The notes: a model not told the origin generated them from the sequence alone. 27,845 bases of DNA from a virus (IMGVR_UViG_3300013133_000051:1-27845); one strand, 5' to 3'; counted from the first letter of the stretch, positions 5,106-24,383 are shown. Translations and numbers: made by a program.

Positions 5106-5132
5106 CTTGTTCTCCTCGGAGGGATTCTCCGA

Positions 5133-5846
5133 CTAAAATGCCCTTGCTTCGTCCATGCTGGATGCTATCGTGGCAACATCCCCTTCTTGTGTAGGAGTTG
5201 CTGCGGCAGGTTTGACTTCTCTAGCTACCGATTCCTGAAGAGTCGGTCGGGAAGTCTTCGGAGTCTCAGGTTTCTTGCGCAAATCCTGCAGAGTAGCGGC
5301 AGACTTCGCAGCAAGTGCCTTTGATTCGGCCACGACCGGACGAGAAGCTACTGGCTTGGATTCGAGAACGCGAGTTCTCTCCACAAGCTGCATCGCGACC
5401 TTGTTAGCTCGTGATGCCTTCTGTTCGGCTCTGGCTACCTGTTCCGTCAACTGGGTCTTCACAAGACGGAGTGCCTGAAGCTCATCTCGCATGGCCTGGA
5501 TTTCAGTCGGGTTTCCACCCTCAAATGTGACCCCTTCAAGGAGCGCCTTAGCGTCTCTGAGGATCTTGAGAGCCTTACCCTCACCAATAGCCACTTGCTT
5601 CTTGGCTGTCCTGTCTATGCTTGCCAGCTTCGCTTCTAGGAAGATTTCAACCTTCCTAGCAAGTTCCTGTTTTTCCTTCTCAATCTCTTCGATGCACAGC
5701 TTTCGTGCTTCGATGAGACGCTGCTTCAGCTCTTGCTCAGCAGCTAACTTCGTCCGACGTCTAAAATTCTCAAGAGATTCAGTAATGGTGTTGACCAATT
5801 CCTGTGAGGCACCCATCTCAGCCAGAAGTTTTTTGATCTTTTCCAT
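5133..5846 (-). CDS. 22: Prohead core scaffold protein, T4 gp22-like
   Basis: This 237-residue protein sits directly between the protease and the capsid gene, exactly where T4 carries gene 22. It is almost wholly helical and charged, with long coiled-coil segments at about 20-90 (RTKLAAEQELKQRLIEARK and on) and 115-160. An alanine/proline/lysine-rich tail (160-237) contains several E-containing sites where gp21 could cut. In T4 the scaffold fills the prohead and is degraded by gp21 before packaging. A GGGAG site lies 7 bases before the ATG. The identity rests on position, size and composition, plus the VEIFLEAKL-type segment seen in gp22 proteins. Confidence 0.8.
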   Translation of the reverse strand: MEKIKKLLAEMGASQELVNTITESLENFRRRTKLAAEQELKQRLIEARKLCIEEIEKEKQELARKVEIFLEAKLASIDRTAKKQVAIGEGKALKILRDAKALLEGVTFEGGNPTEIQAMRDELQALRLVKTQLTEQVARAEQKASRANKVAMQLVERTRVLESKPVASRPVVAESKALAAKSAATLQDLRKKPETPKTSRPTLQESVAREVKPAAATPTQEGDVATIASSMDEARAF

Positions 5847-5890
5847 CTTGAATCTCCCTTTACTTCTAGTTTTGCTCTAAGGAGTATTCC

Positions 5891-7699
5891 TTAAAGCGAC
5901 AAGAAATGCCTAATTTCTTCCTTAAGCATCTTAGACCTAGCCTGATGGAGGAAAACCTTCTTATCCTCTGACACAATCGGGCTGATCTTGCCAAGTCTAT
6001 GCTTCCTACTCTCTTCAAGGCGCTTAAGTTGAGTGCCAGTTACGGAAGGCTCAGCAACGGCATCAAAAGTAATAAACTCAAAACCTTCCTGAACTTGATA
6101 AGCCTCTTCACCATCAGCTTCAACTAACTCCATATCACCAACACCACGAGAACTAATACCAACCTGAATACCACGATCTAATAAACAAGATAACATACTA
6201 CCACAAGGACAACGATCATCATTAATAACCTCCAACTCACCATATACAGTCTTAGTCTTATTCTCCATCCACAACCTAGTCAACAAATGAGAAATTCTAT
6301 CAAGGTGAATCTTAGCATCACAATTTCCAGTCCAGAATGAACAGCCATCTTGTTCCATATAGAAATTACCATGTTCAGTTGTTAAGCAATAAATATTACC
6401 CTTATGTTGGAATGGTTCAATTTTAAGGAACCTATCATCAAGATGTATTCCTTCCATGTCAGAAAGTGTTAATTGATAGAGTGGTTTCTTATTTTCTGCT
6501 TTTATTACTCTTCCTGCAAAAGTGTAATCATTCTCTGTAATAATCGTTGTAGAGTAGCAACAACCTCCGGATTTGACATAACATTCATGTAAATCATTTA
6601 TCAATTTCTCTGAAACAGCAAAAACATTTGATCGACCATTTTTCAAACGACCGTCACCAACTTGGAACCAATAAACTAGTTCTTCAAGATATATTGCATC
6701 AAGGGCTTTGATATCTTCTGGGATATATTTTGTGTATTTATTTCCGAGTTTTGAAAGATATTTATGCAATCTAGCATCTGATAGATAAAATGAATTATCT
6801 GTTTCTTGCCATTTCAAACCATTGGGGAATTTAGATAACATTTCACGAATTATTGGTTTATAATCATCTTTAGTCTGAAAAATATTCACTCTATAACTTC
6901 TTGGTTCATTAACAATGCAACCTTCAGCGAGCCATAACCCAAGGAATGATGTAAATGTTTTTGTATCAATATGTAGATCGTCTGTTATTGCGGCGTTATA
7001 ATAATTTTCTGTCAATGCTTTCAGTTCTTCCTTAGGAATACCTGGAATAATATAAGTTGATTGATCATTGCCGACCCATTTAGCTTTACGAGGGATGATA
7101 TTCTTATTGAATTTTTTACGATCAGTGTATATTTCTTGAAGAGTGGCTTCTGTTTGTTTTGGTGTATATCCATTTCTAGTTTCCATAATAATTTTATGTG
7201 GTGCTGTGAAACCAGAATTTATATAACGACCTTCTAATTTATATGCTTGTCCTTCATATTGTTCATTAATAATCGTATTCACTCGTGATTTAACCATTAT
7301 CCCATCAACACGAGAATAAACAAAATCACCTTCTTTTATATCTTCAAATTTCTTCCACCCATCACAAGTAAGAACTTTAAAATCGGGTGAAGTTAAACAA
7401 GGATGATCAAACTCGCCACACACCTTACGCTCTTTAATAGGAGTCTGAAGCTTCTCAATAGCTTCCTTCAAAATCGGATAAGGATAAATTCTACCATTAG
7501 CATTACGTTGATCAGCACGCTGGAAAACACCAGTGCACCGCATTACATTGACTTTATCATGACCAAATGATTCAGTAATAGCACGTTTAACGTCGAGTGG
7601 CTTGAAATCCATCGTATCCCGCAGAAGCTCCAGACCGGACGGTAATTGTCCGGTCTGGGCAATATATTCACGAAGCAACATCGGCGGTCGCTTGATCAT
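5891..7699 (-). CDS. 21: Prohead maturation protease, T4 gp21-like, with intein
   Basis: The precursor is 602 residues; removing the intein leaves about 243, close to T4 gp21 (about 212). Extein residues 1-100 include FQRADQRNANGRIYP and end in CGEFDHP, which carries the catalytic histidine (H99). Extein residues 460-602 start with CDAKIHLDRISHLL and contain GIQVGISSRGVG, which carries the catalytic serine of this S77-type serine protease family. The intein therefore sits between the two active-site motifs, one residue after the HP. The enzyme cleaves core proteins and the capsid leader inside the prohead. The gene lies 3 bases after the large core-protein gene and upstream of scaffold and capsid, forming one late operon. 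The start ATG at 7699 is followed by family-like sequence at once. Confidence 0.92.
   Translation of the reverse strand: MIKRPPMLLREYIAQTGQLPSGLELLRDTMDFKPLDVKRAITESFGHDKVNVMRCTGVFQRADQRNANGRIYPYPILKEAIEKLQTPIKERKVCGEFDHPCLTSPDFKVLTCDGWKKFEDIKEGDFVYSRVDGIMVKSRVNTIINEQYEGQAYKLEGRYINSGFTAPHKIIMETRNGYTPKQTEATLQEIYTDRKKFNKNIIPRKAKWVGNDQSTYIIPGIPKEELKALTENYYNAAITDDLHIDTKTFTSFLGLWLAEGCIVNEPRSYRVNIFQTKDDYKPIIREMLSKFPNGLKWQETDNSFYLSDARLHKYLSKLGNKYTKYIPEDIKALDAIYLEELVYWFQVGDGRLKNGRSNVFAVSEKLINDLHECYVKSGGCCYSTTIITENDYTFAGRVIKAENKKPLYQLTLSDMEGIHLDDRFLKIEPFQHKGNIYCLTTEHGNFYMEQDGCSFWTGNCDAKIHLDRISHLLTRLWMENKTKTVYGELEVINDDRCPCGSMLSCLLDRGIQVGISSRGVGDMELVEADGEEAYQVQEGFEFITFDAVAEPSVTGTQLKRLEESRKHRLGKISPIVSEDKKVFLHQARSKMLKEEIRHFLSL
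6323..7399 (-). mobile_element. Intein in the prohead protease (LAGLIDADG type, penultimate Gly)
   Basis: The 359-residue intein runs from C101 (CLTSPDFKVLTCDGWKKF, block A) to N459 and is followed by a Cys extein residue. Block B appears as GFTAPHKI. LAGLIDADG-type helices are visible as FLGLWLAEG (252-260) and VYWFQVGDGR (342-351), so it should carry its own homing endonuclease. The C-terminal junction reads SFWTGN|C, with glycine where most inteins have histidine before the asparagine. Plus-strand base content changes at its edges: 45 of 60 bases are A or C in the extein at 6181-6240, but only 29 of 60 in the intein at 6841-6900, which fits later acquisition. Confidence 0.92.
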
Positions 7700-7702
7700 G
7701 GA

Positions 7703-10700
7703 TTATTTCCCTTGGCCAGGCTTCTTCATCTTGTCAAACTTCGTCTTTGGATTCAGCCGATTGTCATCAGTAGTATATTTCTTACTCTTAGGATCAGTTA
7801 TATCATGACGTTCTTTAGGAGCTGGAGGAAGACCAGTCTTCTTAGACCGTACCTTATCCTCCATCGGAGGCTCCGCAGAAGGCTCCTCAGGAATTTCATC
7901 CAAAGAAGCAGGAATTTCATCGCCCATTCCGGCTTCAGGAATTCCCTCTGGGCCAGCCGCCTCGCCCTCTGGACCACCAATCTCAGGAGCAAGACCTTCG
8001 GCATCAACCTCAGTAGAAATGTCATCCGCTGACGCAGGAGGTTCAGTCGGCAGATCAGTAGTCTCAGGCTGAATCATCAGAGTAACTTCATTAGCAGCAC
8101 CTTCATCACCACTATCAATCTTCACTCTAATCTGACTATTCGGCTTAACTGTAATCTCTTGTTCACCACCAGGAGGTTCAGCCATTGGGTCAACAATATC
8201 CCCAGCAGCCGGAGCCAGATCATCTGGGCCGCCGCCAATAGGCTCGTCACCAATGGTTGGCTCACCCTCAACCGGAGGCTCAGGAATCAAACCAGCCTCG
8301 TCACCACCCTCAAGAGAACCACCAGCATCCATTGGCGAAGCAACATCGCCAGCAGGAGCAATCTCACTATCAACCTGCTCATCATCCTCTTCAGCAATCA
8401 CTGAGGCAACTATACTGTCAAGATTATCCTCAGTAGTGAAACCAGAATTCTTATTGTACGGGAACATCAAACCCTTGCGGCTGGTCGGAGGACGACGACC
8501 GGCCTCACTAACCTCACCCTTCACCTTACCAGCGATAGACTTTCCTTCAGGGCTATCATTAGTAGCAGTCTTGGAACCAGACCCCGTATCAACCTTACCA
8601 AGACCAGCCTTCTGAACTCCCTTGCCTTCAGGAGAATCATTTGATGGTTTCTCACCACCGCTAGAATTCTTGATCTTACCAATACTCTTATCGGCCAAAC
8701 CCTTACCTTCTGGGCTTTCCATCGTGCCGACTGCCTCAACCACTAAGTCGAAGACATCGAAACCGCAATCTGGGCACATCGCAACATCTTCACCCATGCA
8801 GGCAACTACATTATGGACACCATTGCAGGCTGGGCATTGCAGTTTGGCTTCGCTCAGTTTGCCCTTCTTGACCAACCCGCCGCCTTTTGGCTTTTCCTTG
8901 GCGACGTTCATGTTTTCCGGTTTTTCGGCGCTGCCGAAGGCTTCCTTACGGCCAGAAACCTTCTTGCCATCATCCGGAAGACCAGTCTCTGATTCCTTCA
9001 TCTTATCAGAGGCAACTTCGTGGGTTTCCTTGAGTGTAGCTTCCTTGTGACCCAATCCAGCCGCTACGTTCTGGTTCTTCTCGCCAGCCTTACCCATCGC
9101 GCCACCAGACGGGCGACTTGCTGACTGAGCCTTCCTTGTTACACCATCTTCAGTTTCCTGCATCTTCTTGGACCAAGTAACATGGTCTTCGGAAACTGGA
9201 TAGTGGTAAGGATCGTCGCTCGTCTCTGTCTCAGTGATGCGAGCGTTCGTCGGGGTATTCTTGATTAGGATGTTCTTGAATTCAGCTGCTACCTTCGGGA
9301 GATTCAGGGCCTTTGCCTGATCGGCACATGCCTCAAGGTGGACCTTGGATCTCTCAAAACCATCTTCCATGAAGAATTTTGGCGCGTCTTTCTGCCAAGT
9401 CGCTAATTCTTCATTGAGTTCAGACGGCTTTAGACCAGAGATTACCTTGCGAATCTCAACGACTGATTCAGTCTTGGTATCTTTCTCTTCACCCTTTTCC
9501 TCATCCTCTGGCTTCTCGGCTGGAGCAGCACCATCACCACTCTTCTTCTTGAATTGGAATTTCTTGAGATGTTCAAAACCTTCGCCGAACATACCAGCGA
9601 TGTCCAGTGCCTCTTCTTCCTCCTCAGGAGCGCCAGGTTCACCTTCTGCGCCAGGTTGCTCAGTCGGGCCTTCACCACCTACACCAGCCTCGGCACCCAT
9701 CGGTGCTGCTTCAGGAGCGCCACCCATCTCCATACCGCCAAGATCACCACCACCCATACCACCCATTCCACCGCCCATGCCACCGGCATCACCAGCGGCA
9801 GGAACGCCACCAACATCAGCGCCGAACTGCTTAGGCTCAATGTCAGAACCAGCACCGTTAGTGAACTTATCGAATGAAGCATATCTCTGGTACTCACTAG
9901 CGGCATTAATAACTTCCTTGTTCAGACTATTGAATAAATTCTCAATGTCTTCAATCAACTTATTATCAACATTATCACCCATCTGTTCAAGACGACTCAG
10001 ATAACCCTGGACCTGTTCACAAACACCAGCCGGAACACTACCCTCTGGCATCTGGGAGCATGTCTCACAAATCTTTCTCAGAGGAATTACGTAGACACCG
10101 GCTTTCTTCTTAAGGTCGATAATTTCTTCTGTGAAGAGAGCATTCAGGAATTTATTATAATCTTCTTCGAAATTCTTGGACTCAGCCAATATCCTAACAT
10201 TTTCAACGAATGGCGCATATTCAGTCATCCGAGCGGTCTTGCGCCACTCTTCGATGATTGTATCCTTATTAATTCTGCAGCAGGTCTTGAAGAACAACGT
10301 GCCGATGTCCTCAGCCAATTGCTTATTCAAGCAGAGACTAGCGGCTAAGGAATCAGCAATCAGATTCTGGGTTTCTTCATGGTTCAGCAAGCAGAATTCC
10401 TGCTGTTCAGAGGTGAATTCAGCGATGTTCTTGACGGCTTCCTTTACCTCTTCCTTCATCAATAGTGTTGCAACGTGCTTAATTCTATTCTGGAATCCAT
10501 CTGACTTATATGCATTCAGTGCCGCTTCCTTCATCATCTTGGCAACTATCTTGCGGCTGGTTAACTCAGTGATTGGGATAGTAATCTTCTGGCTATTAAA
10601 TGTCGCTTCAACAATACCACCACGATTAACTCTTACGCCGCCGTTGATAATTGCAGCCAATGACTTGACTATCTGGTCTTTATCTTCTGTCGTGATATTC

Positions 10701-11185: not shown

Positions 11186-14100
11186 TCAATGTATTTTTGC
11201 GTCTGACTGTTCTTCAGCAATTAATTGCTGCTCCTGAGGTAACATCTTTTGCGATATAATTTTAATCTCTTCATTTTCCTGATTATTTAAAGATGGGTCC
11301 AAGATTTTCTTAACCTCAGTGCAGACTTCATCAATCATCGTCTTCTCAGTACCAGGACTGACAATTTCAGAACCCTTACCATTAGTAAGACCATCCAACT
11401 CATTCTGATTAACATACCATGATGCATCAGGAGTATAGAAAACTTTCTCAGCCTCACGATACTGCCTAATTCCACCATTCTTTATTAAATCATTATACTC
11501 CATAATTAACATCTTATCTTCATCATCAACAGCCTCACCAAGAGATAATCCAGGAGGTGCGGCAACTTCCTCACCACCAGCTTTCGCTTCTTTCTCCGCC
11601 TGCTTTGCTCTATTAATCTGATTCTCAGCAATCTCATCCTTCGTCATATCAGTAAATCTACCAAGAATCCACTCATCAGTGAATAACCCACTCTCCTTAA
11701 GATTACTAATAACCTCAGACCTAGTATTCCATGTCTCAATCCGGTATAATTCGTCAATAGCAGATGCAGCAGTCATAGTCAAATCAAGATCTTTAATCTC
11801 TTCAACGGAGAATCCACGCAGGGCAAGATCAATAATAGCAATCTTCTTCAAACCAATAGCAACTTCGCGCTGAACCCACTGTACAGCCTTGGCAAATTCA
11901 GGCGAAGAACTAGCGACAGACCTAGTATCAGATTCAGTCTGCTCACCGATACCAACTCTACTAAATGGAATCTTGGTACCAGCGATCATCTTCTTCTTGA
12001 AGTAAAGAATATCCTCAATCTGATCCAAATTCTGAGCGCCAGGTAATGTTTCAATAGTCGGACCTTCACCGCCAGGACGCTTAGGCAGGAAGAAATCGTC
12101 TTCTTGAATCAGCGGGGCATATCTCTCATTGACCTGACCAGTAGCTGGATCAACAAATTTATGCTTCTTAAATTGTCTAGCAATCTGGGTAATATAATGG
12201 TACACCTGAGTATTTGGAATATTACCTACTGGAATAGAGAACATACGCTTCTCAGGCGCTCTAGTATTATGGACCGTAACACCATTGGCTACAAAATTAC
12301 GATTCTCATGCTCAACTGAGATATCAAAGACTTCTTGCTGACCAACATATTCAATTTCAGTGATTTTCTCATATCCAACCTTCGATTCTGGGTTAATATA
12401 TAAGTTATAACTAGTATACTCGCCATTCATATGTTCTAAACCACCTTCCCTAGTTCTAGTGCGAATATTCCCAGCAATCCAGCCAATTTGTTCACAAAGT
12501 ATTTTGATATCCTCTAATAATTCACGATTACAAAGTTCCAATTCATAATATTCGCCACTGGCTCCAGTACGAATAGTACCATCTGCATCAATTAAACCAA
12601 GTATAAACTCAATCTTATGACTGAGTGGTAATTCATAAACCCAACCTGGAATACGTTTGCCATGTGCGCCACCAATTAGACCAAGATCAACAAAAGTCAT
12701 ATATAATTGTTTATCACATACAACAGCAGTATTTAGACGTTTGATCTTAGCACCATCAATTATAATATTCTTATATTCCAATTTTACACGTTGATGATAA
12801 CGTTTATAATGCTCAATATAACGTTTATTAATATCCTGATCAACACCTAACGCTAAGCCAACTCGCCAATTTATATCTGTAAGATAACCATCTCCAAGGA
12901 AGAAACCAACAAAACGAGCAAAATCCTTGTCAGAAATCGATGGCAAAGTAGATCCGCCACCACAATGTGGTACATAACGATCTATCTTCGCTGGATCTAA
13001 CCCCAATAACTCACATAAAGTAATCAACTTTTGAATTGGCATCCCCTTACCCAGGTATAATACTTGTCTAGTAAGATATATAGGATGATCAACTTTGCGC
13101 ATAATCTCTGTGATATTATTATATGAAGTATTCCTAAACTGTTCTAATTGTTCTAACGTCAATTTACCATATTCATTATCTGACCATAATTTAATTTGTT
13201 TCTGCCTACCTTCACCGCCGATTTTAGGAGATACCAACAGATGCCATTCTGGATTAAGATCCTGTAAATCAATATATTTTAAAACATCATCGGATAAATC
13301 TCTAATCAAGAATGGATGAGTTGCTGTACCTGTAATCTGCCGATATTTCGTACTGACAGTATATACATCACGTATTCCATTACTAACTTGGTGCGTTACC
13401 CTTGTTGGTGTCAAACGCCCATCTGAAGACTGACTATAAACTATATCTCCAGGTCGAATATATTTTATCTTGATATGGCCAGTAGGTGTCCAAATACTAG
13501 TATCGCCCACCAAACAAACTCTATAGATCAACGCAGCATCTTCCATCAACCTCAAACGCTTGAAATCCTTGCGCGACCCATCAATAATAGAATTATGAAT
13601 TACAACACCATTAGAAATAAAATTATGATGTTCAGATACTTGTATATCACCAACTTCGACTTCGCCACCATCTTCAATAGATATAATAGTCTCAACTAAA
13701 TAATCGTCCGATGAATTATCATATTTAGTCCTACGTTTTCCAAAGTGAAGTAGATCACCAGATGACATTTTAGCATTATACCAATAAAGTATCCAAGAAT
13801 CATGTCTCTTATATTCTTCACCATGAATAATAGTTGTCATGATTGGACGATTACGTTTACTAATATTACTACACTTAATATTCATTTGATCAAGAAGGAC
13901 CTTAATATCCCTAATCAATTCCTCTGAAGTTAATTCTATTTGGAATCTTTCACAATTCCATTCATCTATATTAGATGAACCATCTGAATCTATTAAACCT
14001 TCTATAAATGCCTTCTTAATATCATTATTGGCTAAAAATACCCATTTTGGAATCCGTTTATCATAACACTTACCAACAAGACCCATCTGAGCGATTGTTT

Positions 14101-15415
14101 GTGATAATTCAATAGAATTAAATTTATAATATCCATAATTACTATTATCACTATTTTCATGAACTGGGTCCTGTTCATAACCAAATGATTTGATAATATT
14201 GATATATTTATCATTTATCTCCTTATACTCGCCTTCAGCAAAACACAATTGTGTATAATTACTAGTTGGAATCCAACCATCTCCAATTAAAAACCCCATT
14301 AATTTAGCAAAATCATTATTAACAAAATCAGGAATTGACATCTTTTTACCAGCATGTTTTTCAATCTTATACTTCTCAATCGGAATCATTATACCAGTAT
14401 TATGAAGTTTTGGAAGAACTAATTTATCACCTTTAATTAAATCTTTAGCTAAAACATATTTCTTAGTCTTTATATCTCTCTCATGCTTTATTTCATAATG
14501 AGCTTGATTCCTATCTGAAGCATTAACCAATACTCGTTCATCTTTATAATTATTCTTAATAATAGCTAGTATTGGATGCTCTGGTGTCACTCGAATAGAT
14601 CTATGTTTAGTATTGATAATCAAAGTATTTTTAATACCAGAAATTACTTTATCTAAAACCTTCGTTACAACTGGTTTCTGATTCTCTAAATCAAACGAAT
14701 AAACTAAATCGCCTTTCTGTATATCCTTTAACTTTTTATAACCATATGGTGTCCAAATGGGACCATTTATATCTTGGCATCTACCATAAGGATGATACGC
14801 ACTCTCATACGAAGTCAGGCGCAAATGCAACACCTGCCAAGGATGTAAGAATTGTGGTGCCATAGTATTAGGGTCTTGATAGAAAAATCCAACAAGATCA
14901 CCAAACTTAGTCTGTAATCTAGTGAAATTATAAACATTAATGAATCTGAGCGATGCTACACCATCACGATTCTTAGTAAGAACCACTTCAGCGGGGAAAT
15001 CACCATACTTACATAGATATCTCACTATTGGTCTTAAGTCTCTATCGATCAGTAGGGTATTATAGAATAAATCTTCCACTCTTTCTTTTACTTGTTTACT
15101 CTTAGCCTTGACTATAACTGCGTGTTTTCTTTCGGAATCAATCAATGAACTTTCGTCGGCATATATATCCAATGCTAATGTAATTTCACCTACCTCATCC
15201 ATCATGTCATAATCTTTATATCTTTCAAGTCTGTTGATTTGGAGGTTGGTCTGGTCTAATAATCCTGATGCTCTGGTTAGTTCGAGGAAGTTGGCACCTG
15301 TGGTAATTCTATTGATATCTGTCTGGTCTTGATAAAGTGAATCAATTCGGTAATAATTTGTATGTCTGAAGAATGCTCTTATCCTGTCAAATACCTGCCA
15401 TGATGGTAAAGGCAT
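11186..15415 (-). CDS. 20: Portal vertex protein, T4 gp20-like, with two inteins
   Basis: The precursor has 1409 residues; without two inteins about 596 remain (T4 gp20 has 524). Extein 1 (1-212) includes ELTRASGLL, YKDYDMMDEVGEITLALDIYADE and LHLRLTSYESAYHPYGR. Extein 2 is only residues 609-633 (SIIDGSRKDFKRLRLMEDAALIYRV). Extein 3 starts TRAPEKRMFSIPVGNIP, a hallmark of gp20 portals. It continues with KKMIAGTKIPFSRVGIGEQ, and ends in a long helical, acidic tail. The portal forms the dodecameric ring for DNA entry, nucleates prohead assembly and docks the terminase and the neck. AAGGA lies 8 bases before the ATG. It sits between the terminase and the core-protein genes in one leftward operon. 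Confidence 0.95.
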   Translation of the reverse strand: MPLPSWQVFDRIRAFFRHTNYYRIDSLYQDQTDINRITTGANFLELTRASGLLDQTNLQINRLERYKDYDMMDEVGEITLALDIYADESSLIDSERKHAVIVKAKSKQVKERVEDLFYNTLLIDRDLRPIVRYLCKYGDFPAEVVLTKNRDGVASLRFINVYNFTRLQTKFGDLVGFFYQDPNTMAPQFLHPWQVLHLRLTSYESAYHPYGRCQDINGPIWTPYGYKKLKDIQKGDLVYSFDLENQKPVVTKVLDKVISGIKNTLIINTKHRSIRVTPEHPILAIIKNNYKDERVLVNASDRNQAHYEIKHERDIKTKKYVLAKDLIKGDKLVLPKLHNTGIMIPIEKYKIEKHAGKKMSIPDFVNNDFAKLMGFLIGDGWIPTSNYTQLCFAEGEYKEINDKYINIIKSFGYEQDPVHENSDNSNYGYYKFNSIELSQTIAQMGLVGKCYDKRIPKWVFLANNDIKKAFIEGLIDSDGSSNIDEWNCERFQIELTSEELIRDIKVLLDQMNIKCSNISKRNRPIMTTIIHGEEYKRHDSWILYWYNAKMSSGDLLHFGKRRTKYDNSSDDYLVETIISIEDGGEVEVGDIQVSEHHNFISNGVVIHNSIIDGSRKDFKRLRLMEDAALIYRVCLVGDTSIWTPTGHIKIKYIRPGDIVYSQSSDGRLTPTRVTHQVSNGIRDVYTVSTKYRQITGTATHPFLIRDLSDDVLKYIDLQDLNPEWHLLVSPKIGGEGRQKQIKLWSDNEYGKLTLEQLEQFRNTSYNNITEIMRKVDHPIYLTRQVLYLGKGMPIQKLITLCELLGLDPAKIDRYVPHCGGGSTLPSISDKDFARFVGFFLGDGYLTDINWRVGLALGVDQDINKRYIEHYKRYHQRVKLEYKNIIIDGAKIKRLNTAVVCDKQLYMTFVDLGLIGGAHGKRIPGWVYELPLSHKIEFILGLIDADGTIRTGASGEYYELELCNRELLEDIKILCEQIGWIAGNIRTRTREGGLEHMNGEYTSYNLYINPESKVGYEKITEIEYVGQQEVFDISVEHENRNFVANGVTVHNTRAPEKRMFSIPVGNIPNTQVYHYITQIARQFKKHKFVDPATGQVNERYAPLIQEDDFFLPKRPGGEGPTIETLPGAQNLDQIEDILYFKKKMIAGTKIPFSRVGIGEQTESDTRSVASSSPEFAKAVQWVQREVAIGLKKIAIIDLALRGFSVEEIKDLDLTMTAASAIDELYRIETWNTRSEVISNLKESGLFTDEWILGRFTDMTKDEIAENQINRAKQAEKEAKAGGEEVAAPPGLSLGEAVDDEDKMLIMEYNDLIKNGGIRQYREAEKVFYTPDASWYVNQNELDGLTNGKGSEIVSPGTEKTMIDEVCTEVKKILDPSLNNQENEEIKIISQKMLPQEQQLIAEEQSDAKIH
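12266..13516 (-). mobile_element. Portal intein 2 (LAGLIDADG type)
   Basis: The 417-residue intein runs from C634 (CLVGDTSIWTPTG, block A) to N1050 at VTVHN|T. Block B reads GTATHPFLI. Endonuclease helices are FVGFFLGDGYL (835-845) and FILGLIDADGT (937-947), with both acidic residues present. The C-terminal block FVANGVTVHN is canonical, with Thr as the first downstream extein residue. It is inserted directly before TRAPE, the most conserved portal segment, and only 25 extein residues after intein 1. Confidence 0.95.
13592..14779 (-). mobile_element. Portal intein 1 (LAGLIDADG type)
   Basis: The 396-residue intein runs from C213 (CQDINGPIWTPYGYKKL, block A) to N608 at VVIHN|S. Block B reads VTPEHPIL. 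Endonuclease helices are LMGFLIGDG (372-380) and FIEGLIDSDGS (470-480), both with acidic catalytic residues present. The C-terminal block FISNGVVIHN with HN and a following Ser is canonical. All splicing residues look intact. It shares architecture with, but is not a copy of, the second portal intein. Confidence 0.95.
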
Positions 15416-15512: not shown

Positions 15513-17405
15513 TTACCTCCTATTGATGTTATTTGGAACTTTCAATTGATTCTTGCGATTGACGACTATCGGAGCTTGTCCCCTCTGGATTCCTCCAAGG
15601 CTCTTCATAAATGTATCAAATTCCTCACTAGGAGTCTTACCACGTAAATCACTATCCTGTCCAACAACTACAGGCATAAGGCATTCTATGCCACCAGTAG
15701 CAACCGCCTTACGTATATCTTCCTCATTTGGAGACATCACAACATCATTTGGATCTTGCCTAGTCGGTAACAAATGGCTAGAATCACTAATCAAAGCATC
15801 CATACCCCCAACCAACGCAAAACCAGCAGACATAGACAAGTCATCGTGATTACCAACACCCTTAACACTACCAACCTTATTCCTACTTAAATGGACAAAT
15901 ATCCTCAACTGATCATATAATCTCTGACTATAAATCTTATACCCACCATTATCTGGGTCCAAATTATCAAGTAATGCCTTAACAACCATCGGCTTGTATG
16001 TCGGAGAAGTAGGAAAACCAACCTTAGTATGTAATTTACCATTAGGTAATTTCATCCTATAAATATTAGGATATCCAAGATCAAAATGGATCGATTGAGT
16101 AACAGGAGCACCCATACCAGTACGCTCAGGAATAACAAGAGCTAAATTATACCACCTACCAATATAATCAACCATCATAGCAAGAACAGTAGGTAATACT
16201 TTAATATTAAGTTCAGCAACCTGCTCCCTAGCCGTATGATCGAAAACCTCAACAGCAGAGAAGTCAACATCTTCGCCGCTAGAAATGTCTATGCCGACCG
16301 AGTATATGTGACCTGGGTCACCAGGTCGAATAATACGCCCGTGTTCGACAACTGGTGGCGTTGGCTTGACTGGCTTCTTCCAAACCCATAATTGGTTCTG
16401 AAAATCAAGCGATAATTTATCATCACTGACTGGGTGAACATATTCAACACTCGAAACAGTCTTATATTCAGTACTAATAGATTCACCCATATTAACCAAA
16501 TAACTAGCTGGTAATACCGTATTACCAGTACCAACGAATTCCGCAAGAATTTCCTGCCTGAACAGATGCGCTTCGCCACGTTTCTGTAGAGCGATATATT
16601 GTTCTTCCAGCCACGGAGACCAAAATGGGCCGTATTTCGCTTTTTCTTCCTTCGTCTCACATTTCCGGATGCCAGCACGTGGACAAATCTTCTTGGCATG
16701 CTTATCTAAATCATCTTTATATGAAATCGTCCAATCCATATCCCACCAATTTACTTCAATAAGATTAAAAATACTGCGTTTAGCAGCGGCGTCCATACAA
16801 TTCATGTGATACCAATTACCTTCACCATTGGCTGTGGAAATCACTATACAAGAACCGCCGTGTTGCAGAGTAGGCCAACCAGCGCCCCACATCGCATCCA
16901 TGTCAGGCATGAATCCAGCTTCGTCTATAATATTAAGTGAAGCTGAATTAGATCTCAAAACATCCTTACCAGATGGGAGACATTTAACAGTCGTGCCATT
17001 CGGGAATCTAATTGAGTGTTCATTACTAATCCTATTAATATCACCATACACTTCATGGAATTCACCAGGAAGATTCTTATAAACAAATTTAATGTTCTTC
17101 TCAAGGAATTCAACAGAATCTCTATCGCCCTTAGAAACAACAAGTACCGTCTTATGATTATAGAACATAGAATACCACAACGTAAACCCACCAGCCAATG
17201 TAGAAATACCACATTGTCTGGTTTTCTTATAAAGATTAAATCTATGATTCCTAAAACAAGCAAGTGATTTCCTCTGATAACTATGTAAATTAAATGGTAA
17301 TATACCAGCTGCTGGGTGCCTTACCTTACAGAAATTCTCAATGAAGAACTGCGGACTAGCTTTGCAGCGTAGGAGAACCTGAGCAAATTGTTCTGATCTG
17401 GTCAT
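15513..17405 (-). CDS. 17: Terminase large subunit, T4 gp17-like
   Basis: The 630-residue packaging motor has an N-terminal ATPase with an RQxGxST-type Walker A (KKTRQCGIST, residues 60-69), Walker B LNIIDEA (157-163) and the coupling motif ISTANGEGNWY (189-199). The C-terminal RNase H-like nuclease shows D373 in VGIDISSGEDVDF, E427 in VIPERTGMG and D521/D522 in NHDDLSMS, the three metal-binding acids seen in gp17. It pumps DNA through the portal and cuts concatemers at headful. The start ATG overlaps the stop of the upstream small gene as ATGA, so the two are translationally coupled. Unlike portal and protease, it has no intein. Size is close to T4 gp17 (610). Confidence 0.95.
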   Translation of the reverse strand: MTRSEQFAQVLLRCKASPQFFIENFCKVRHPAAGILPFNLHSYQRKSLACFRNHRFNLYKKTRQCGISTLAGGFTLWYSMFYNHKTVLVVSKGDRDSVEFLEKNIKFVYKNLPGEFHEVYGDINRISNEHSIRFPNGTTVKCLPSGKDVLRSNSASLNIIDEAGFMPDMDAMWGAGWPTLQHGGSCIVISTANGEGNWYHMNCMDAAAKRSIFNLIEVNWWDMDWTISYKDDLDKHAKKICPRAGIRKCETKEEKAKYGPFWSPWLEEQYIALQKRGEAHLFRQEILAEFVGTGNTVLPASYLVNMGESISTEYKTVSSVEYVHPVSDDKLSLDFQNQLWVWKKPVKPTPPVVEHGRIIRPGDPGHIYSVGIDISSGEDVDFSAVEVFDHTAREQVAELNIKVLPTVLAMMVDYIGRWYNLALVIPERTGMGAPVTQSIHFDLGYPNIYRMKLPNGKLHTKVGFPTSPTYKPMVVKALLDNLDPDNGGYKIYSQRLYDQLRIFVHLSRNKVGSVKGVGNHDDLSMSAGFALVGGMDALISDSSHLLPTRQDPNDVVMSPNEEDIRKAVATGGIECLMPVVVGQDSDLRGKTPSEEFDTFMKSLGGIQRGQAPIVVNRKNQLKVPNNINRR

Positions 17406-18596: not shown

Positions 18597-20756
18597 TTAT
18601 CGATCCTCGAAATCGTCTGGTTCCCCATTACCTAGTATATTTTTAGCTGTATTATTAATCTCGTTAACTGGCGAATCAGAAAAATCATGACATCTTAGAC
18701 GAATAATTCTAAAGAAGCAAACTATTGATGATCTTGATAAATTAGTCTCCTGCATCAATTTAGCAATTAATCCCTCGTGTGCTCGCTCATCCTTATTATG
18801 TAATTTCATTAGAGCATCAAGAATTTGTAAATGTTCATCATTAAATTTACATAACTCATATGCTTCATCATAGAACCGAGAGATAATTTTAGATGGTCCA
18901 ATCGGTTTGTTCTCTACGTGAGTCTTGAACATATTACTGTTTTTTCTATCTCTATTCTCTTTTTTAATATAAGCTAATATTACTGTCCTAGCGACTTGTG
19001 AGTTATGCGACACAAATCCATTGGCAATATATCCATGATCATCAGAATTTACTTCTATATCACATAATTCACTTTCTGATTTTTCAATTTTAATTATAGG
19101 CAACCATATAACTCTATTCTTAAATTTTAAATTTTCATCAATCCTCTCTTTTAAGAATTTATAATCAATATCTTCGCTGAAATTCGACCAATATTCAAGA
19201 TATTGCCTTACTTTAAATAATTTTCCAACATATCCAGGTTTTATTAATTTTCTTATTTGATTATAATGGCCAACTGAACCATATTTTTTATATAATTTAA
19301 TAAATTTATCCTTTAGTGAATAAATGTACTCATGGGGGATAGGTAATGAAGTTATATTTTCCTGTTTTCTATTAATTCTAAAACCAATTCGATCATAAAA
19401 TCTTAATGAATCAGCGGTTGGTAATCTAATCATATATGCGCCAGTTAAATTACTTATATAAGATCGCCCATCTTTTTTAATAAATTCTCTAATTTCTCTT
19501 GGGTCAACATATAATTTTGAGACAATACCAATATTAAGTAATATACTACGAATTTGATTAATTAATTCCAATGATGTTGATGTAAACCCAACTTCACCAT
19601 TAAATGATGAAGAATGACCGTCCCCATCAAATAACCCTGATAATAAATTATGAATATTATCTTTAGACATCCTAAGAAGACGATCTGGTATCTTCTTATT
19701 TTGTGCTGTATGACATTCAGAAAAACCAATCTTATCCATAAACTCATTAAACGATTTAGAACAAGTATAATTACCACAATTTATATCTTGGTGTTTAAAT
19801 TTCAGCCCATTAAACCTAGATAAAAAGTCAATAACTTCTTTATCAACATTATAAATATTAAGCATATTATTACCATAAGACCCTTCAGAAATATACAAAC
19901 CAAAAAAATAGGCCATATCATTAGTAATAACATTAGGATGTTTCCACTCATCAGTAACTAATTTTATATCACTTATATCATCATTATTACCAAATATATG
20001 TTGCCCACATTGCATCGCAACTAAATCACCAACTTTTAAATCTTTTAATTTTGCCCAATCTGGGCCATTATCATTAAGCCTCATCAAACAATGTTCTGTA
20101 GATCCCTCAATAGGATAATTATACATTGAATTAATAATTAATGTATCCTGCTTAATCTTTCTAATACCACCATTCACTTCAACCATTTTATCAATACCAT
20201 GAACCATTAATGAAATATTATCGACAACATCAGATATAGGTAAAATTCCATTTTTAGTTATAACTTTAGTATTTGGATTTACACACCATAAGTTGAATAA
20301 TCTTGATTTTCCTTTATAATAGATGCTTGTTTCGGTAAGTTGTACTTTGCAGTTTGGACATCTCTTTATTCTTTTGACGATTTCGGCTTCAAAGATATAC
20401 TCTTCTGATAGGAGTGATTCATTTGGACGCATATTATTGTAGCATTTAGCGCAGTAGGGGAGTGCTTCATATTTGTATAATGCGCTTTCTATTTGTATCC
20501 ATGCTGTTTGGAATAAATCCATCATTGAGGAGTCATCTTTACCTGGGTAGATTTGTGCTAGGTTGTGTGCTTTGATTAGTTGCACTATTAGTTCTGAGGC
20601 GTGTATCATTATTTCGTCGCGGAGGTGGACGTCAGTACAGGCCCCTCGGAGATACCTATGTAATAGTCGTTCGACAATTTCGTTATCAAAGTAGTGGTTT
20701 TTGTAGAAGATTTCTTTTCGTTCTATGGCGTCTTTCGGGTGGACACCCTTGGACAT
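18597..20756 (-). CDS. 55: Late sigma factor, T4 gp55-like, with intein
   Basis: The start is set at ATG 20756 because GGAGG lies 7 bases upstream; the upstream in-frame ATG at 20792 has no ribosome site. The precursor is 719 residues. The spliced form is about 291, longer than T4 gp55 (185). The pattern HASELIVQLIKAHNLAQIY..MMDLFQTAWIQIESALYKYE, then RLFNLW|SQVARTVILAYIKKENRDRK, matches the gp55 sigma-2 core-binding helices (T4 [21 protein letters not shown]). An extra zinc-ribbon-like pair (CAKC..CPNC) is inserted in the sigma-2 region. A C-terminal HTH-like segment (LIAKLMQETNLSRSSIVCFFRIIRLR) may serve as a sigma-4-like part. It would direct RNA polymerase to late promoters for the genes to its left. 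Confidence 0.8.
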   Translation of the reverse strand: MSKGVHPKDAIERKEIFYKNHYFDNEIVERLLHRYLRGACTDVHLRDEIMIHASELIVQLIKAHNLAQIYPGKDDSSMMDLFQTAWIQIESALYKYEALPYCAKCYNNMRPNESLLSEEYIFEAEIVKRIKRCPNCKVQLTETSIYYKGKSRLFNLWCVNPNTKVITKNGILPISDVVDNISLMVHGIDKMVEVNGGIRKIKQDTLIINSMYNYPIEGSTEHCLMRLNDNGPDWAKLKDLKVGDLVAMQCGQHIFGNNDDISDIKLVTDEWKHPNVITNDMAYFFGLYISEGSYGNNMLNIYNVDKEVIDFLSRFNGLKFKHQDINCGNYTCSKSFNEFMDKIGFSECHTAQNKKIPDRLLRMSKDNIHNLLSGLFDGDGHSSSFNGEVGFTSTSLELINQIRSILLNIGIVSKLYVDPREIREFIKKDGRSYISNLTGAYMIRLPTADSLRFYDRIGFRINRKQENITSLPIPHEYIYSLKDKFIKLYKKYGSVGHYNQIRKLIKPGYVGKLFKVRQYLEYWSNFSEDIDYKFLKERIDENLKFKNRVIWLPIIKIEKSESELCDIEVNSDDHGYIANGFVSHNSQVARTVILAYIKKENRDRKNSNMFKTHVENKPIGPSKIISRFYDEAYELCKFNDEHLQILDALMKLHNKDERAHEGLIAKLMQETNLSRSSIVCFFRIIRLRCHDFSDSPVNEINNTAKNILGNGEPDDFEDR
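19002..20285 (-). mobile_element. Intein in the gp55-like sigma factor (LAGLIDADG type)
   Basis: The 428-residue intein begins CVNPNTKVITKNG (block A) directly after FNLW and ends GYIANGFVSHN|S. Block B reads STEHCLMRL. Endonuclease helices are MAYFFGLYISEGS and LLSGLFDGDGHSS, each with an acidic residue. All splice-site residues (Cys1, block B His, HN, Ser+1) are present. It interrupts the helix that in sigma-70-type factors contacts core RNA polymerase, so the unspliced protein should not function. Confidence 0.93.
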
Positions 20757-20859
20757 CGTCTTACCTCCACATTGCATTTCCATCGTGTTCATACATATAT
20801 TTATTCAAACAAGGAATCTGAGAATATAGTTTTAATGTAAGAAATAGTTACAAATTATA
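20757..20859 (-). promoter_or_regulatory. Sigma-gene leader with weak late-promoter-like element
   Basis: The 103-base spacer between helicase and sigma gene holds GAATAAATATATG on the minus strand about 30-40 bases before the chosen start. AATAAATA differs by one base from the T4 late element TATAAATA. In such AT-rich DNA this is weak evidence. The GGAGG site that decides the sigma start is at its left end. Confidence 0.25.
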
Positions 20860-23859
20860 CTATATCTTAATTCTAAACCTACTCTTCACGAATTTAACAC
20901 CATCCAAAACAACATTACCAACACAAATCTTAGGATTATATCCCATATCAATAACAGCCTTAATATTCTCCCTACTATGATGATACAAATACTTATTATT
21001 CAAGAAAAAGAATAAAAACACCCTAGCCCAACCCCTAGCATTCCTACGAACAGCACGACCAACCATCTGATTAATATTAGACCGCTGCTTACCCCCACCA
21101 ACAACAATAAGATTATCAACACCACCAAGAATATCCAAACCACGCTGGAAAATCTTACCACCAATAAGGCACATCAATTCACCACTCTCAAACAACTTCA
21201 AACACTCATCACGCTCAGACTTAGACGACTTATTCCAAAGAAACCTAGAACCAGAAATCTTATCCCTCAAAGCCTCACCAAGCTCACCAATAGGAGAAGT
21301 ATCCAAAAGAATCAAAGTCTTATCCTTCGGAAACGAGTCAACAATAGTCTTAATCTTACTATGCAACACCTCATTCTCAATAATCTCCTCCCTCATAGCA
21401 ATATCATAAGCACGCCTATCCTCCTTATCACCATCCCTACCAACAACAATAAAAACCGGCCTAACAGGAATAATCCTACCACGCCCCTGCACCTCTTGCC
21501 TAGGAACCTCATGAATAATAGAACCGAGATTCTCCTTAATAAACAAATTCTGAATCGGACGGCCAGGATCATTGAAAGTACCACTAAAACCGTACCTCCT
21601 ACGACCATTAAACACCGTCCTAAACAACTTACTATACTGAGTAGTTGAAGCCAAATCAGCCTCATCAACACAAATCATATCACAAGTAGAAACAGCCTCG
21701 CGAATAATATCAGCATTACCATGCCTAGTAGAATGCCACTTAAGACGCTTATCATACTCCTGATCACGGAAATAATTATGAGCCAACTCATAATAAGTAC
21801 CCTTCAACTTCATAATATTCTCAGGATTCCTAGTCATAACCTCGATAAGAGCAGAAGGAAGAACTTTAGTTAAATTCTCATCCTCACGCTCCACCATCTT
21901 CAACAAACGAGAAAAAACTTGATGCCTGGTTAAAGTAACCTTAGCCTTCTTCGGCTTAGCAGCAACGAAGAGTGACTGTAAACTACCGACCATAATCTTC
22001 TTACCAGTCGGCAAGAAACCATGGCAAAACTTATCAACCTTCTCAGCAACCTTCCTAATCTGTAGCCTATTAACAATCTGATTCAAAACAACAGTTTGCT
22101 CAGTAATAATAACACACGAACAATCATATAATTTAACAATACCACAAATAATCTCTGTATTATGTGATAAAATATTGTTAGTCCAAAATGAATGACTTAT
22201 ATCTTCAACTTGAAGATCATAACAATTTTCTATGCCGTCATCAACAACATGTTTTACTTTATTCCAATTATTGATTCTATAATAGAATCCATTTTTGAAC
22301 ATTTGTCGCAAATTATTAGGACATATTTCATTGAATGATTTTGTGCATATTTCTCTGCGGCTATTTTCTTCGATAATATACTGCTCTTCTTCAATTCGAA
22401 TAAGTATTTCGATTTTATTTCTATTATCAATTTGTTTGTTATTGTCTGAATCATAAAATCTGATAAATACCATGAATTGGCGAATTTTATTGTTGGACCC
22501 CTCTCTAGAGATAAGATATTCTTCGATTTTACACAATACTCGATGAACTTCAACTCTAATCTGCTCTGATATGGTATTCTCCCAAATCTTGTAATTATAA
22601 AATTGGTCCGTATTTTCTGAGAACGCGAAAACAATTCGTTTATAGATTCCTTCGTCGAATGATTCTTGCGCCACGTCTCTTTTTTCTTCCTCTTTATATT
22701 CTCTATCTCTTCTATTGATTTTAATTTCATTGTTTCCCTGAATTTTGATATAACCTCTAGCGAATTCGGTAACCTCCCTGTTTTCGTTTTTGTTAGTACA
22801 CCTCTCTTCACTGACTCTGATCTGTCCACATTGGGCAAATTCGCTGGCACTGATATTCCATACTTCTTTTTGCATGTCTCCATGACTTTCTTTATTATTT
22901 CTGGATTTTTCATACAATTGTTTTTTGTACGTCCTATTTCTAAACAATGACACATCTTCTTGTATAAATTTGGATTGTTCTGTAATGCCATTTTTTGTGC
23001 CAATGATCTCGTACATTTTATACAAAGAGGTTTTCCATATTTCTTCGTCGTCTTTAATATTGAATATAGATTTTTCACAAACCGTGTCGCGCATAACGCA
23101 CAGTCTGACTCTATATGAACTCGATTGTATTTGCGAATATATGCCCCATTTATTACTAATTCCATCACCTTCTCTTTTAATGATTTCGTCTGATTCAGTA
23201 ATTTGACATAACTGTTTCCAACCATTTTTTGTGAAGATTCTATGTTCATCGACTCCACGTATAATTCCTCCATTATCTAAGATAAGTTTTTTAATTGGTC
23301 TTGGAGATGTTTTATATAATTTATTAATTTTATTATATCCATTAATACCAAGAACATATAATTCAAAATTAGAAACATCTTTAATTTCCTCATCTAAAAA
23401 ATCAGTAAACAAATTACTTATTGGTATTTCAATCCCATTCAATATTATATTTGATTCCCCAGTTATACATTTCCCTGCTCCAGTTGGCGCTTGAATACAA
23501 CCAATCTCATTATTCAACGTAGACTTAATAGCACCTATCTGATAGTCCTCTAACGTAATACCTGCTAGCATATCCTTTGTAATTCTATCCTCAGGCACCT
23601 TCTCAATTGGGGGACGCTCATCGAAAACCTCTAACGGTACATCTATCTTAACCATATAATTCTTCAATTCAGTTAAGAATGGTAACGCCAATCTACGATT
23701 TTTTGTATCATACCTCCTATACCATCCGTCCCAATAATCAGAATCAATATAATGCGCTCTAGGATCTCTAACACTGAAGTGATCTAGGATACTTTTCTCT
23801 ACTTCTACAGGCATCTGTAATAGGTATATCCAACGATTGTCTACGATTTTTGCAATCAT
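20860..23859 (-). CDS. uvsW: UvsW-type DNA helicase with intein in Walker A
   Basis: The 999-residue precursor leaves about 562 residues when spliced (T4 UvsW about 500). Residues 1-90 match the small UvsW N-terminal domain. ITLEDYQIGAI is the Q-like motif. The Walker A loop APTGAGK is broken after the Lys (residue 130) and resumes with TEIICG at 568. Further superfamily 2 motifs are VDEAD (731-735), YGFSGTF (756-762), LILLDTSP, GLDILG and the motif VI QMVGRAVRR (931-939). UvsW unwinds branched DNA and R-loops and helps the switch from origin- to recombination-driven replication. The coding strand is unusually rich in G and T in the extein parts but not in the intein. The ribosome site is weak. 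Confidence 0.95.
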   Translation of the reverse strand: MIAKIVDNRWIYLLQMPVEVEKSILDHFSVRDPRAHYIDSDYWDGWYRRYDTKNRRLALPFLTELKNYMVKIDVPLEVFDERPPIEKVPEDRITKDMLAGITLEDYQIGAIKSTLNNEIGCIQAPTGAGKCITGESNIILNGIEIPISNLFTDFLDEEIKDVSNFELYVLGINGYNKINKLYKTSPRPIKKLILDNGGIIRGVDEHRIFTKNGWKQLCQITESDEIIKREGDGISNKWGIYSQIQSSSYRVRLCVMRDTVCEKSIFNIKDDEEIWKTSLYKMYEIIGTKNGITEQSKFIQEDVSLFRNRTYKKQLYEKSRNNKESHGDMQKEVWNISASEFAQCGQIRVSEERCTNKNENREVTEFARGYIKIQGNNEIKINRRDREYKEEEKRDVAQESFDEGIYKRIVFAFSENTDQFYNYKIWENTISEQIRVEVHRVLCKIEEYLISREGSNNKIRQFMVFIRFYDSDNNKQIDNRNKIEILIRIEEEQYIIEENSRREICTKSFNEICPNNLRQMFKNGFYYRINNWNKVKHVVDDGIENCYDLQVEDISHSFWTNNILSHNTEIICGIVKLYDCSCVIITEQTVVLNQIVNRLQIRKVAEKVDKFCHGFLPTGKKIMVGSLQSLFVAAKPKKAKVTLTRHQVFSRLLKMVEREDENLTKVLPSALIEVMTRNPENIMKLKGTYYELAHNYFRDQEYDKRLKWHSTRHGNADIIREAVSTCDMICVDEADLASTTQYSKLFRTVFNGRRRYGFSGTFNDPGRPIQNLFIKENLGSIIHEVPRQEVQGRGRIIPVRPVFIVVGRDGDKEDRRAYDIAMREEIIENEVLHSKIKTIVDSFPKDKTLILLDTSPIGELGEALRDKISGSRFLWNKSSKSERDECLKLFESGELMCLIGGKIFQRGLDILGGVDNLIVVGGGKQRSNINQMVGRAVRRNARGWARVFLFFFLNNKYLYHHSRENIKAVIDMGYNPKICVGNVVLDGVKFVKSRFRIKI
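22159..23469 (-). mobile_element. UvsW intein with no in-frame endonuclease motif
   Basis: The 437-residue intein runs from C131 (CITGESNIILNGIEIPISNL, block A) through a block B-like RGVDEHRIFTKNGW to LQVEDISHSFWTNNILSHN|T. Splice residues look complete: Cys1, block B His, HN, Thr+1. The recognisable splicing parts are only about the first 95 and last 28 residues. Between them lie some 300 residues that are highly charged, rich in Glu, Lys, Arg, Asn and Ile, and without LAGLIDADG, HNH or GIY-YIG motifs. The same DNA encodes a convincing endonuclease in the +1 frame. Plus-strand A+C content drops from 47 of 60 (21001-21060, extein) to 22 of 60 (22381-22440, intein). Confidence 0.93.
22254..23273 (-). 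CDS. Out-of-frame homing endonuclease nested in the UvsW intein
   Basis: In the +1 frame relative to the helicase, an open frame of 339 codons lies wholly inside the intein. Its product has a zinc-finger-like unit C58-C61..C84-C87 (CALC..LCIKCTRS). A KKKYGISVPANLPNVDRSESVKRG segment resembles the KYGV repeats of phage Vsr-type homing endonucleases. A nuclease-like domain at 230-320 shows YQSRLELKFIEY, WYLSDF and LIIEIKSKY, which form a (P)D..ExK active site with D272, E285 and K287. The true start is uncertain. ATG 23273 has no ribosome site, ATG 23249 has GGAG 3 bases upstream, and ATG 23165 (MELVINGAYI) has AGAAGG 2 bases upstream and begins where family similarity starts. Expression from inside the helicase message is inferred. 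Confidence 0.75.
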   Translation of the reverse strand: MEELYVESMNIESSQKMVGNSYVKLLNQTKSLKEKVMELVINGAYIRKYNRVHIESDCALCATRFVKNLYSILKTTKKYGKPLCIKCTRSLAQKMALQNNPNLYKKMCHCLEIGRTKNNCMKNPEIIKKVMETCKKKYGISVPANLPNVDRSESVKRGVLTKTKTGRLPNSLEVISKFRETMKLKSIEEIENIKRKKKETWRKNHSTKESINELFSRSQKIRTNFIITRFGRIPYQSRLELKFIEYCVKSKNILSLERGPTIKFANSWYLSDFMIQTITNKLIIEIKSKYLFELKKSSILSKKIAAEKYAQNHSMKYVLIICDKCSKMDSIIESIIGIK

Positions 23860-23894
23860 ATGTTAATGTATCACTTTCTATGACGTATTAAATA

Positions 23895-24383
23895 CTACTT
23901 AGGTCGCATCGCCAAAGCTGCGGATAGACTTGTAACTGCTTTGCCTAACGCAGCTTTCTGCGCAGGATTATTCTTCGCAGCGGCCTCGGCCTGCTTTCGT
24001 TCCTGTTCAGCTCGTGATGGGTCGAGTTTTGGCGGCTCAGGTGGTGGCTCAGTCGCTTTTTGTGGTGTTGTTGGCTTGGGTGGCTGGCCTGGTTTCGTTA
24101 GTTGTGGTGGTTTATTTGGATCTACTGATGGATTTACCTGAGCAATCTGCTGCTGTAATGCTTGAATTTGCTTCTGAACCTGTTGATTTTGTAAGTTAAG
24201 GGCTTTGGTTCTCTCTGTCTCTTGCTTCTTTATGTCACGAGCAATAGTATCGCCTATCTTCTTAAATTCCTTCGGTGCGCCACTGGCACCTGGTGCGCCA
24301 GGCCGAACACCCCCCGCGCCTGCTGGCGGGGCAGCTTCGACGACAGTAACCTTGCCCTTCTTGCTCTTAATTATTATCTTCAT
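23895..24383 (-). CDS. Proline/glutamine/alanine-rich small protein
   Basis: The 162-residue product starts at ATG 24383 with AAGGGA upstream and overlaps the end of the preceding gene by 17 bases. A basic start (MKIIIKSKKGK) leads into a Pro/Gly/Ala linker. A Gln-rich helical segment follows at about 55-85 (LQNQQVQKQIQALQQQIAQV), probably a coiled coil, then a Pro/Lys-rich stretch and an Ala-rich end. It has no recognisable domain. Composition and setting suggest a small virion or assembly protein. Confidence 0.65.
   Translation of the reverse strand: MKIIIKSKKGKVTVVEAAPPAGAGGVRPGAPGASGAPKEFKKIGDTIARDIKKQETERTKALNLQNQQVQKQIQALQQQIAQVNPSVDPNKPPQLTKPGQPPKPTTPQKATEPPPEPPKLDPSRAEQERKQAEAAAKNNPAQKAALGKAVTSLSAALAMRPK

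Follow-up and report, generated by a model that had tools for sequence, protein, structure and literature searches.

A putative DUF7487-type homing endonuclease gene nested out of frame in the continuous intein of a viral UvsW-like helicase gene

We describe a UvsW-like DNA helicase gene on the virus contig IMGVR_UViG_3300013133_000051:1-27845, referred to here as the window (the whole stretch of 27,845 nucleotides [nt] that was analyzed, with coordinates counted from its first letter). The gene is interrupted by an intein whose DNA carries a second long open reading frame (ORF) in the +1 register, the product of which is designated P0002; relatives are denoted by L numbers. Both ORFs were found at the coordinates given by a preliminary description of this DNA, the longer free of stops and the shorter in the +1 frame, and the features of the locus are as follows (a slash marks a splice junction).

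20860 to 23859, minus strand: UvsW-like DNA helicase ORF, intein interrupted, encoding a 999-amino-acid (aa) precursor, with exteins at 23470 to 23859 and 20860 to 22158.
22159 to 23469, minus strand: intein of 437 aa in Walker A (TGAGK/C ... HN/T), with the helicase frame open.
23180 to 23469, minus strand: N-terminal splicing domain of the intein (blocks A and B, with Cys1 and RGVDEHRIFT), in the host frame, from alignment with L001 and L119; the inner border is approximate.
22159 to 22266, minus strand: C-terminal splicing domain of the intein (blocks F and G, ending in SHN/T), in the host frame, from the same alignment; the inner border is approximate.
22254 to 23273, minus strand: nested +1-frame ORF of 339 codons, a DUF7487-type putative homing endonuclease gene by profile match and TnsA-like predicted fold.
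22254 to 23165, minus strand: likeliest endonuclease coding sequence, from the ATG at codon 37, 303 aa, with a start homologous to that in L119.
23013 to 23102, minus strand: zinc finger of the nested protein (C58, C61, C84, and C87), from the family alignment, with a predicted local distance difference test score (pLDDT) of 91 to 95.
22272 to 22599, minus strand: predicted PD-(D/E)xK nuclease domain of the nested protein (E240, D272, and E285xK287), from alignment, model, and structure comparison.

The combined frame of helicase and intein (20860 to 23859) has zero internal stops over 999 aa. The helicase ORF matches the PHROG 16 DNA helicase family (E=8e-36) as well as Helicase_C, and excision of the intein in silico leaves a 562-aa helicase that aligns with the intein-free homologues of L003, L004, and L007. 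The intein displays the expected hallmarks, namely, a Cys at position 1 (C131), a block B (RGVDEHRIFT) with its histidine, and a terminal SHN followed by T, and NCBIfam intein-containing models match both of its ends. No Pfam match was obtained for the window intein itself, probably because of its long middle; the orthologous mini-intein of L001 scores above the cut-off of Pfam PF14890 and matches the structure of the Ssp DnaB mini-intein (1mi8). In the alignment with L001 and L119, the C-terminal domain shows 58% identity over 36 residues, and an AlphaFold model of the intein built from two sequences reached a pLDDT of only 33. A group I intron was considered and rejected, as no Rfam match at E<=1 was found in positions 20800 to 24000. 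The contig of L005, which is 98% identical over the N terminus of the helicase, stops at 4383, just before the intein junction; this may reflect intein-plus and intein-minus variation within the population, or it may be due to chance.

The first 36 codons of the nested ORF overlie the conserved N-terminal domain of the intein, and translation of the endonuclease likely starts at the ATG of codon 37 (23165). The alternative is a GTG at codon 6 (23258; about 334 aa), which has GGAGGA 7 nt upstream, as in other genes here.

P0002 was compared with a profile built from 31 relatives from which it had been left out, and it scored 73.8 bits (E=8e-20), with profile positions 18 to 315 falling on residues 22 to 334; the host frame gave no score with the same DUF7487-family profile, and profile searches of the host-frame middle of the intein found no endonuclease match. 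The preliminary description had seen no endonuclease motif in that middle and had placed a CxxC..CxxC finger, a KYG segment, and a D..ExK site in the +1 frame, and profile searches of the two frames bear it out on both counts: in the family alignment, P0002 retains the finger cysteines C58, C61, C84, and C87, the KYG segment, and E240, D272, E285, and K287. Homologues of the +1-frame protein exist, and they belong to Pfam DUF7487 and to PHROG 3339 and 12131, annotated "homing endonuclease"; in the 33-row alignment that contains P0002, 31 rows match DUF7487 at E<=0.001. One relative adjoins a capsid gene, and the relatives resemble F-LimVIII, which is located between structural genes of Dickeya phage LIMEstone1. 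They were reached only via a more distant family member: a tblastn search of named phages with the nested protein gave no match, and scans of genome contigs found no result.

The zinc finger of P0002 scored 12.1 bits, against 8.5 for the best of 300 shuffles, and the structural model of the protein had pLDDT values of 94 to 98 in the nuclease domain and 91 to 95 in the finger. Comparison of the model by VIA-align ranked TnsA highest (Z of 9.7; root mean square deviation of 2.2 over 101 residues), followed by Can2 (8.1), I-Bth0305I (7.7), and Vsr (7.5). Because of the profile match, the key residues, the fold comparison, and the families of its relatives, we regard P0002, at the level of sequence and model, as a TnsA-like PD-(D/E)xK member of the DUF7487 homing endonuclease group, with putative cleavage activity, rather than as a Vsr-type enzyme; the Vsr type, which the preliminary description mentioned for known fractured split-intein genes, does not apply here. 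DUF7487 itself, listed in Pfam as of unknown function (L027 to L106), seems to be an extensive group of phage homing endonucleases that combine a zinc finger, KYG repeats, and a TnsA-like PD-(D/E)xK domain.

In the register that relates the two frames, a host-frame stop arises only at nested codon junctions of the form xxT/AA, xxT/AG, or xxT/GA, and stop avoidance was counted over codons for which a T-ending synonym exists. Across nested codons 37 to 339, T occurs at 0 of 71 stop-making junctions versus 63 of 148 elsewhere (Fisher p=8e-14), and across the whole 339-codon ORF, it occurs at 0 of 79 versus 68 of 161. Synonymous shuffles of the nested gene's own codons (n = 5000) produced a mean of 17 host-frame stops and a minimum of 7; shuffles of the host codons always produced at least 4 stops in the nested frame, in which the actual gene has only its terminal stop. 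This avoidance of T was absent from 15 other genes of the window, from 54 distinct family members (T fraction of 0.43 to 0.71), and from the split orthologue of L119 (56 of 117 versus 125 of 221; p=0.14). Family members carry a mean of 17 stops per 100 codons in the host register (9 in the other frame), versus zero in the window gene. Chance overlap was rejected, given the stop avoidance and an alternative frame of 339 codons, against a longest chance frame of 138 codons in other window genes and 74 codons in the 54 family members. On the evidence of codon choice, the openness of the host frame is under selection, and the claim that a continuous intein frame and a nested endonuclease gene overlap for about 1 kb, with both kept open by selection, is upheld by the stop avoidance, its controls, and the homologues of the nested protein. 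The 138-codon frame, which lies in the terminase gene (16292 to 16705), was itself considered as a hidden gene and rejected, there being no family match and no sign of an inserted endonuclease in the terminase; it is probably due to T-rich third positions.

Four states were found at the same helicase site among relatives, namely, empty, split, dual-frame, and decayed, with the empty site represented by L003, L004, and L007. In the split state of L119, an ORF for the N-terminal half of the intein (IntN; 7390 to 8091, minus strand), an endonuclease ORF (6084 to 7397), and an ORF for the C-terminal half (IntC; 4759 to 6102) follow each other, neighbors overlapping by a few bases. The L119 endonuclease gene lies in the same +1 register, with 56 stops in the host frame, and its ATG is nt 694 of the helicase ORF, an offset identical to that of the window ATG at codon 37. 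Its product matches P0002 at E=4e-31 and groups with it in a clade (99/98) that includes one more relative, and on sequence, it is likely the orthologue of P0002. The decayed state is that of L001 and L002, whose continuous intein of 197 aa still contains a piece of the finger region, likewise in the +1 frame (E=6.5e-11); over this remnant, comparison of the window with L001 gave a nested-frame score of 81 (shuffles, 24 +/- 5) versus 58 for the host frame. The extein tree pairs the window with L001 and places L119 outside this pair (86/100), with other branchings open. Screening of 54 further distinct ORFs from DUF7487 loci uncovered no other dual-frame gene. Where an intein end resembling this one was present (56 loci), the remaining long overlaps were alternative frames that did not match the endonuclease profile, the longest being at 65% guanine-plus-cytosine content.

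We consider it highly probable that the locus encodes a continuous, probably cis-splicing UvsW intein and that the endonuclease would be a separate protein, made from this DNA in the +1 frame. How the two genes would be expressed, how the intein would splice and the endonuclease cleave and home, and which state came first are all inferred, as follows. Splicing of the 999-aa read-through product would release a helicase of 562 aa and an intein of 437 aa, the middle of which would be a charged shadow of the endonuclease gene, while internal initiation would yield an endonuclease of 303 aa from the ATG at 23165 or of about 334 aa from the GTG at 23258. The endonuclease would cut intein-free helicase alleles at Walker A, and repair would copy the whole element. 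Both frames would be kept by selection, one because the helicase is required and the other because homing depends on the endonuclease. The probable starting point is the arrangement of L119, in which the endonuclease gene separates the two halves of a split intein; all host-frame stops would then have been lost. In-frame deletion could in turn reduce the dual-frame state to a mini-intein, the condition of L001 and L002. On balance, we lean toward a stable dual-coding element, in which a split intein may have regained a continuous frame as some 50 stops were purged from a still-active endonuclease gene, the host protein would be made in one piece, and most insertions or deletions in the endonuclease gene would also destroy the helicase.

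Several observations weigh against this account. The dual-frame state is represented by the window only, as a single intact copy, and L001 and L002 retain no more than a remnant, the remaining endonuclease DNA having been deleted with the intein frame unbroken. P0002 scores 16.9 bits against Pfam DUF7487, below the curated cut-off of 27, and sits on long branches in the family tree. The ribosome-binding site before the ATG at 23165 is weak, and the pattern of substitutions by codon position between the window and L001 is saturated and uninformative.

Alternative explanations of the two open frames were weighed against these data. An ordinary in-frame intein endonuclease could take on this appearance if assembly or sequencing error had introduced two compensating indels, one close to either end of the nested frame; one of the two frames would then be unselected and would not stay open, yet it is stop-free over 339 codons, whereas the family average is 17 stops per 100, and T is avoided at p=8e-14. 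The independent contigs L001 and L002 share the +1 remnant, and the L119 gene has the same +1 register, so that we assign two such errors a negligible probability. Programmed frameshifting could take ribosomes into the nested frame and out again, so that intein and endonuclease would be fused, and an AAAAAAC run just upstream of the nested ORF speaks for it; a -1 shift there, however, enters the third frame, with its 46 stops, two shifts would be required, and an open host frame would be unneeded, all of which make this mechanism most improbable. The nested endonuclease might instead be a dead passenger, with the intein frame alone being of consequence, and the decay of the endonuclease in L001 and L002 demonstrates that loss occurs. 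In the window, by contrast, the nested frame is whole, none of its four finger cysteines or nuclease residues has been lost, and it holds only its terminal stop where host-codon shuffles never had fewer than 4; we think it unlikely that the gene is dead.

The intein might also act mainly in split form, with IntN and IntC as separate, trans-splicing chains and the continuous frame incidental, a reading to which the split of L119 at the same site and an in-frame ATG at host codon 520 of the window, upstream of IntC, lend some weight. No ribosome-binding site was seen before codon 520, strict stop avoidance would not be needed, and no stop terminates the IntN frame, which would therefore give no separate IntN chain; such a mode is very unlikely. 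A reversed history is compatible with the same present-day arrangement: the dual-frame state would be ancestral, and in L119 the acquisition of an IntC start, followed by that of stops, would have split the intein. The shared register and identical start offset fit either direction, and we hold this order of events to be possible, although the less likely one. All other sampled family members are stop-rich in the host register, and the endonuclease gene would therefore have arrived with stops, which fits an earlier L119-like split state, and the extein tree, in which alternative branchings are open, sets L119 apart from the pair formed by the window and L001. Change from split to dual-frame is thus the likely direction on sequence grounds. 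The idea that the locus is an intermediate between split and in-frame inteins gains from the link to an orthologous split intein with an orthologous endonuclease; only its direction is left at the level of likelihood.

To our knowledge, inteins carry their endonucleases in frame or, if split, as a gene between the halves. The window intein resembles ordinary LAGLIDADG inteins, including four neighbors in the window, in its splicing blocks and its conserved site in a phage gene, but differs in that its endonuclease would be a separate product of another frame rather than a segment of the intein protein itself. The term "fractured genes" is applied to inteins that are split, with a homing endonuclease gene lying between the two parts, in passages of two papers that cite Dassa et al. 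2009 (PMC3229294, PMC10448857). Like these, the window has an intein in a phage-type replication gene and a separate endonuclease, and L119 exemplifies the type at this very site; unlike them, the window intein is one continuous ORF with the endonuclease out of frame inside it. The fractured-gene endonucleases of Dassa and coworkers are reportedly Vsr-type, unlike the TnsA-like DUF7487 enzyme predicted here. Free-standing phage endonucleases (DUF7487, PHROG 3339 and 12131; F-LimVIII-like) share the domain order, finger cysteines, catalytic residues, and predicted fold of P0002, but those sampled lie between genes and have stop-rich alternative frames, and only the window copy overlaps a host frame.

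The nearest parallel is the ShiLan domain, described in 2025, in which an out-of-frame HNH endonuclease is hidden in an insertion of a phage methylase (PMC11855218); the enzyme has 195 aa, the insertion lacks intein motifs and is thought to be retained in the methylase, and no split relative was reported (PMC11855218). In both cases, the endonuclease occupies an alternative frame of an insertion that is open in the host frame, and separate initiation is assumed. In contrast to ShiLan, the window has a PD-(D/E)xK nuclease and intein blocks, and splicing would free the host protein of the shadow segment. No case of an unbroken intein frame overlapped by an endonuclease gene in another frame turned up in the open-licence literature searched, which is weak evidence of absence because the search covered open-licence papers only. 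The preliminary description had called the state undescribed; this holds for the intein version within that literature, although out-of-frame endonuclease insertions without an intein have already been described in ShiLan.

The other inteins of the window lie in the following genes.

About 6323 to 7399: intein of the prohead protease (ORF region 5891 to 7699).
About 13592 to 14779 and 12266 to 13516: two inteins of the portal gene (ORF region 11186 to 15415).
About 19002 to 20285: intein of a sigma-like gene (ORF region 18597 to 20792).

All four carry in-frame LAGLIDADG-type motifs (detected by Pfam in the portal and sigma-like genes and by eye in the protease), and out-of-frame coding is therefore special to the UvsW intein. 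Five inteins in one 27.8-kb fragment represent a dense array. The sigma-like gene adjoins the helicase, and its LAGLIDADG intein occupies the same place in the window, L002 (6231 to 8450), and L119 (637 to 2868); it is missing from the sigma-like gene of L001 (6231 to 7166), though the helicases of L001 and L002 are nearly identical, which indicates recent gain or loss. In L159 (2858 to 7865), the terminase large subunit shows an apparent split-intein fracture, with two endonuclease-like genes (one HNH-like and one of the KYG type) between the halves and a separate mini-intein upstream. Adjoining the major head protein gene of the window, the ORF at 1917 to 3410 encodes a single protein that unites helix-turn-helix motifs, a nuclease segment resembling Vsr/EDxHD (IIECQGDYWH), and an acetyltransferase domain resembling Mom; a similar domain set is divided over two overlapping ORFs in L013.

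In summary, the locus seems to represent a genuine and apparently undescribed manner in which a selfish gene can inhabit a host gene, a third solution beside the in-frame endonuclease and the gene between split halves. With four states side by side at one site, the interconversion of split and continuous inteins becomes a testable question. Gene entanglement is now engineered deliberately by synthetic biologists, and at this locus a selfish gene and its host gene would be entangled naturally.
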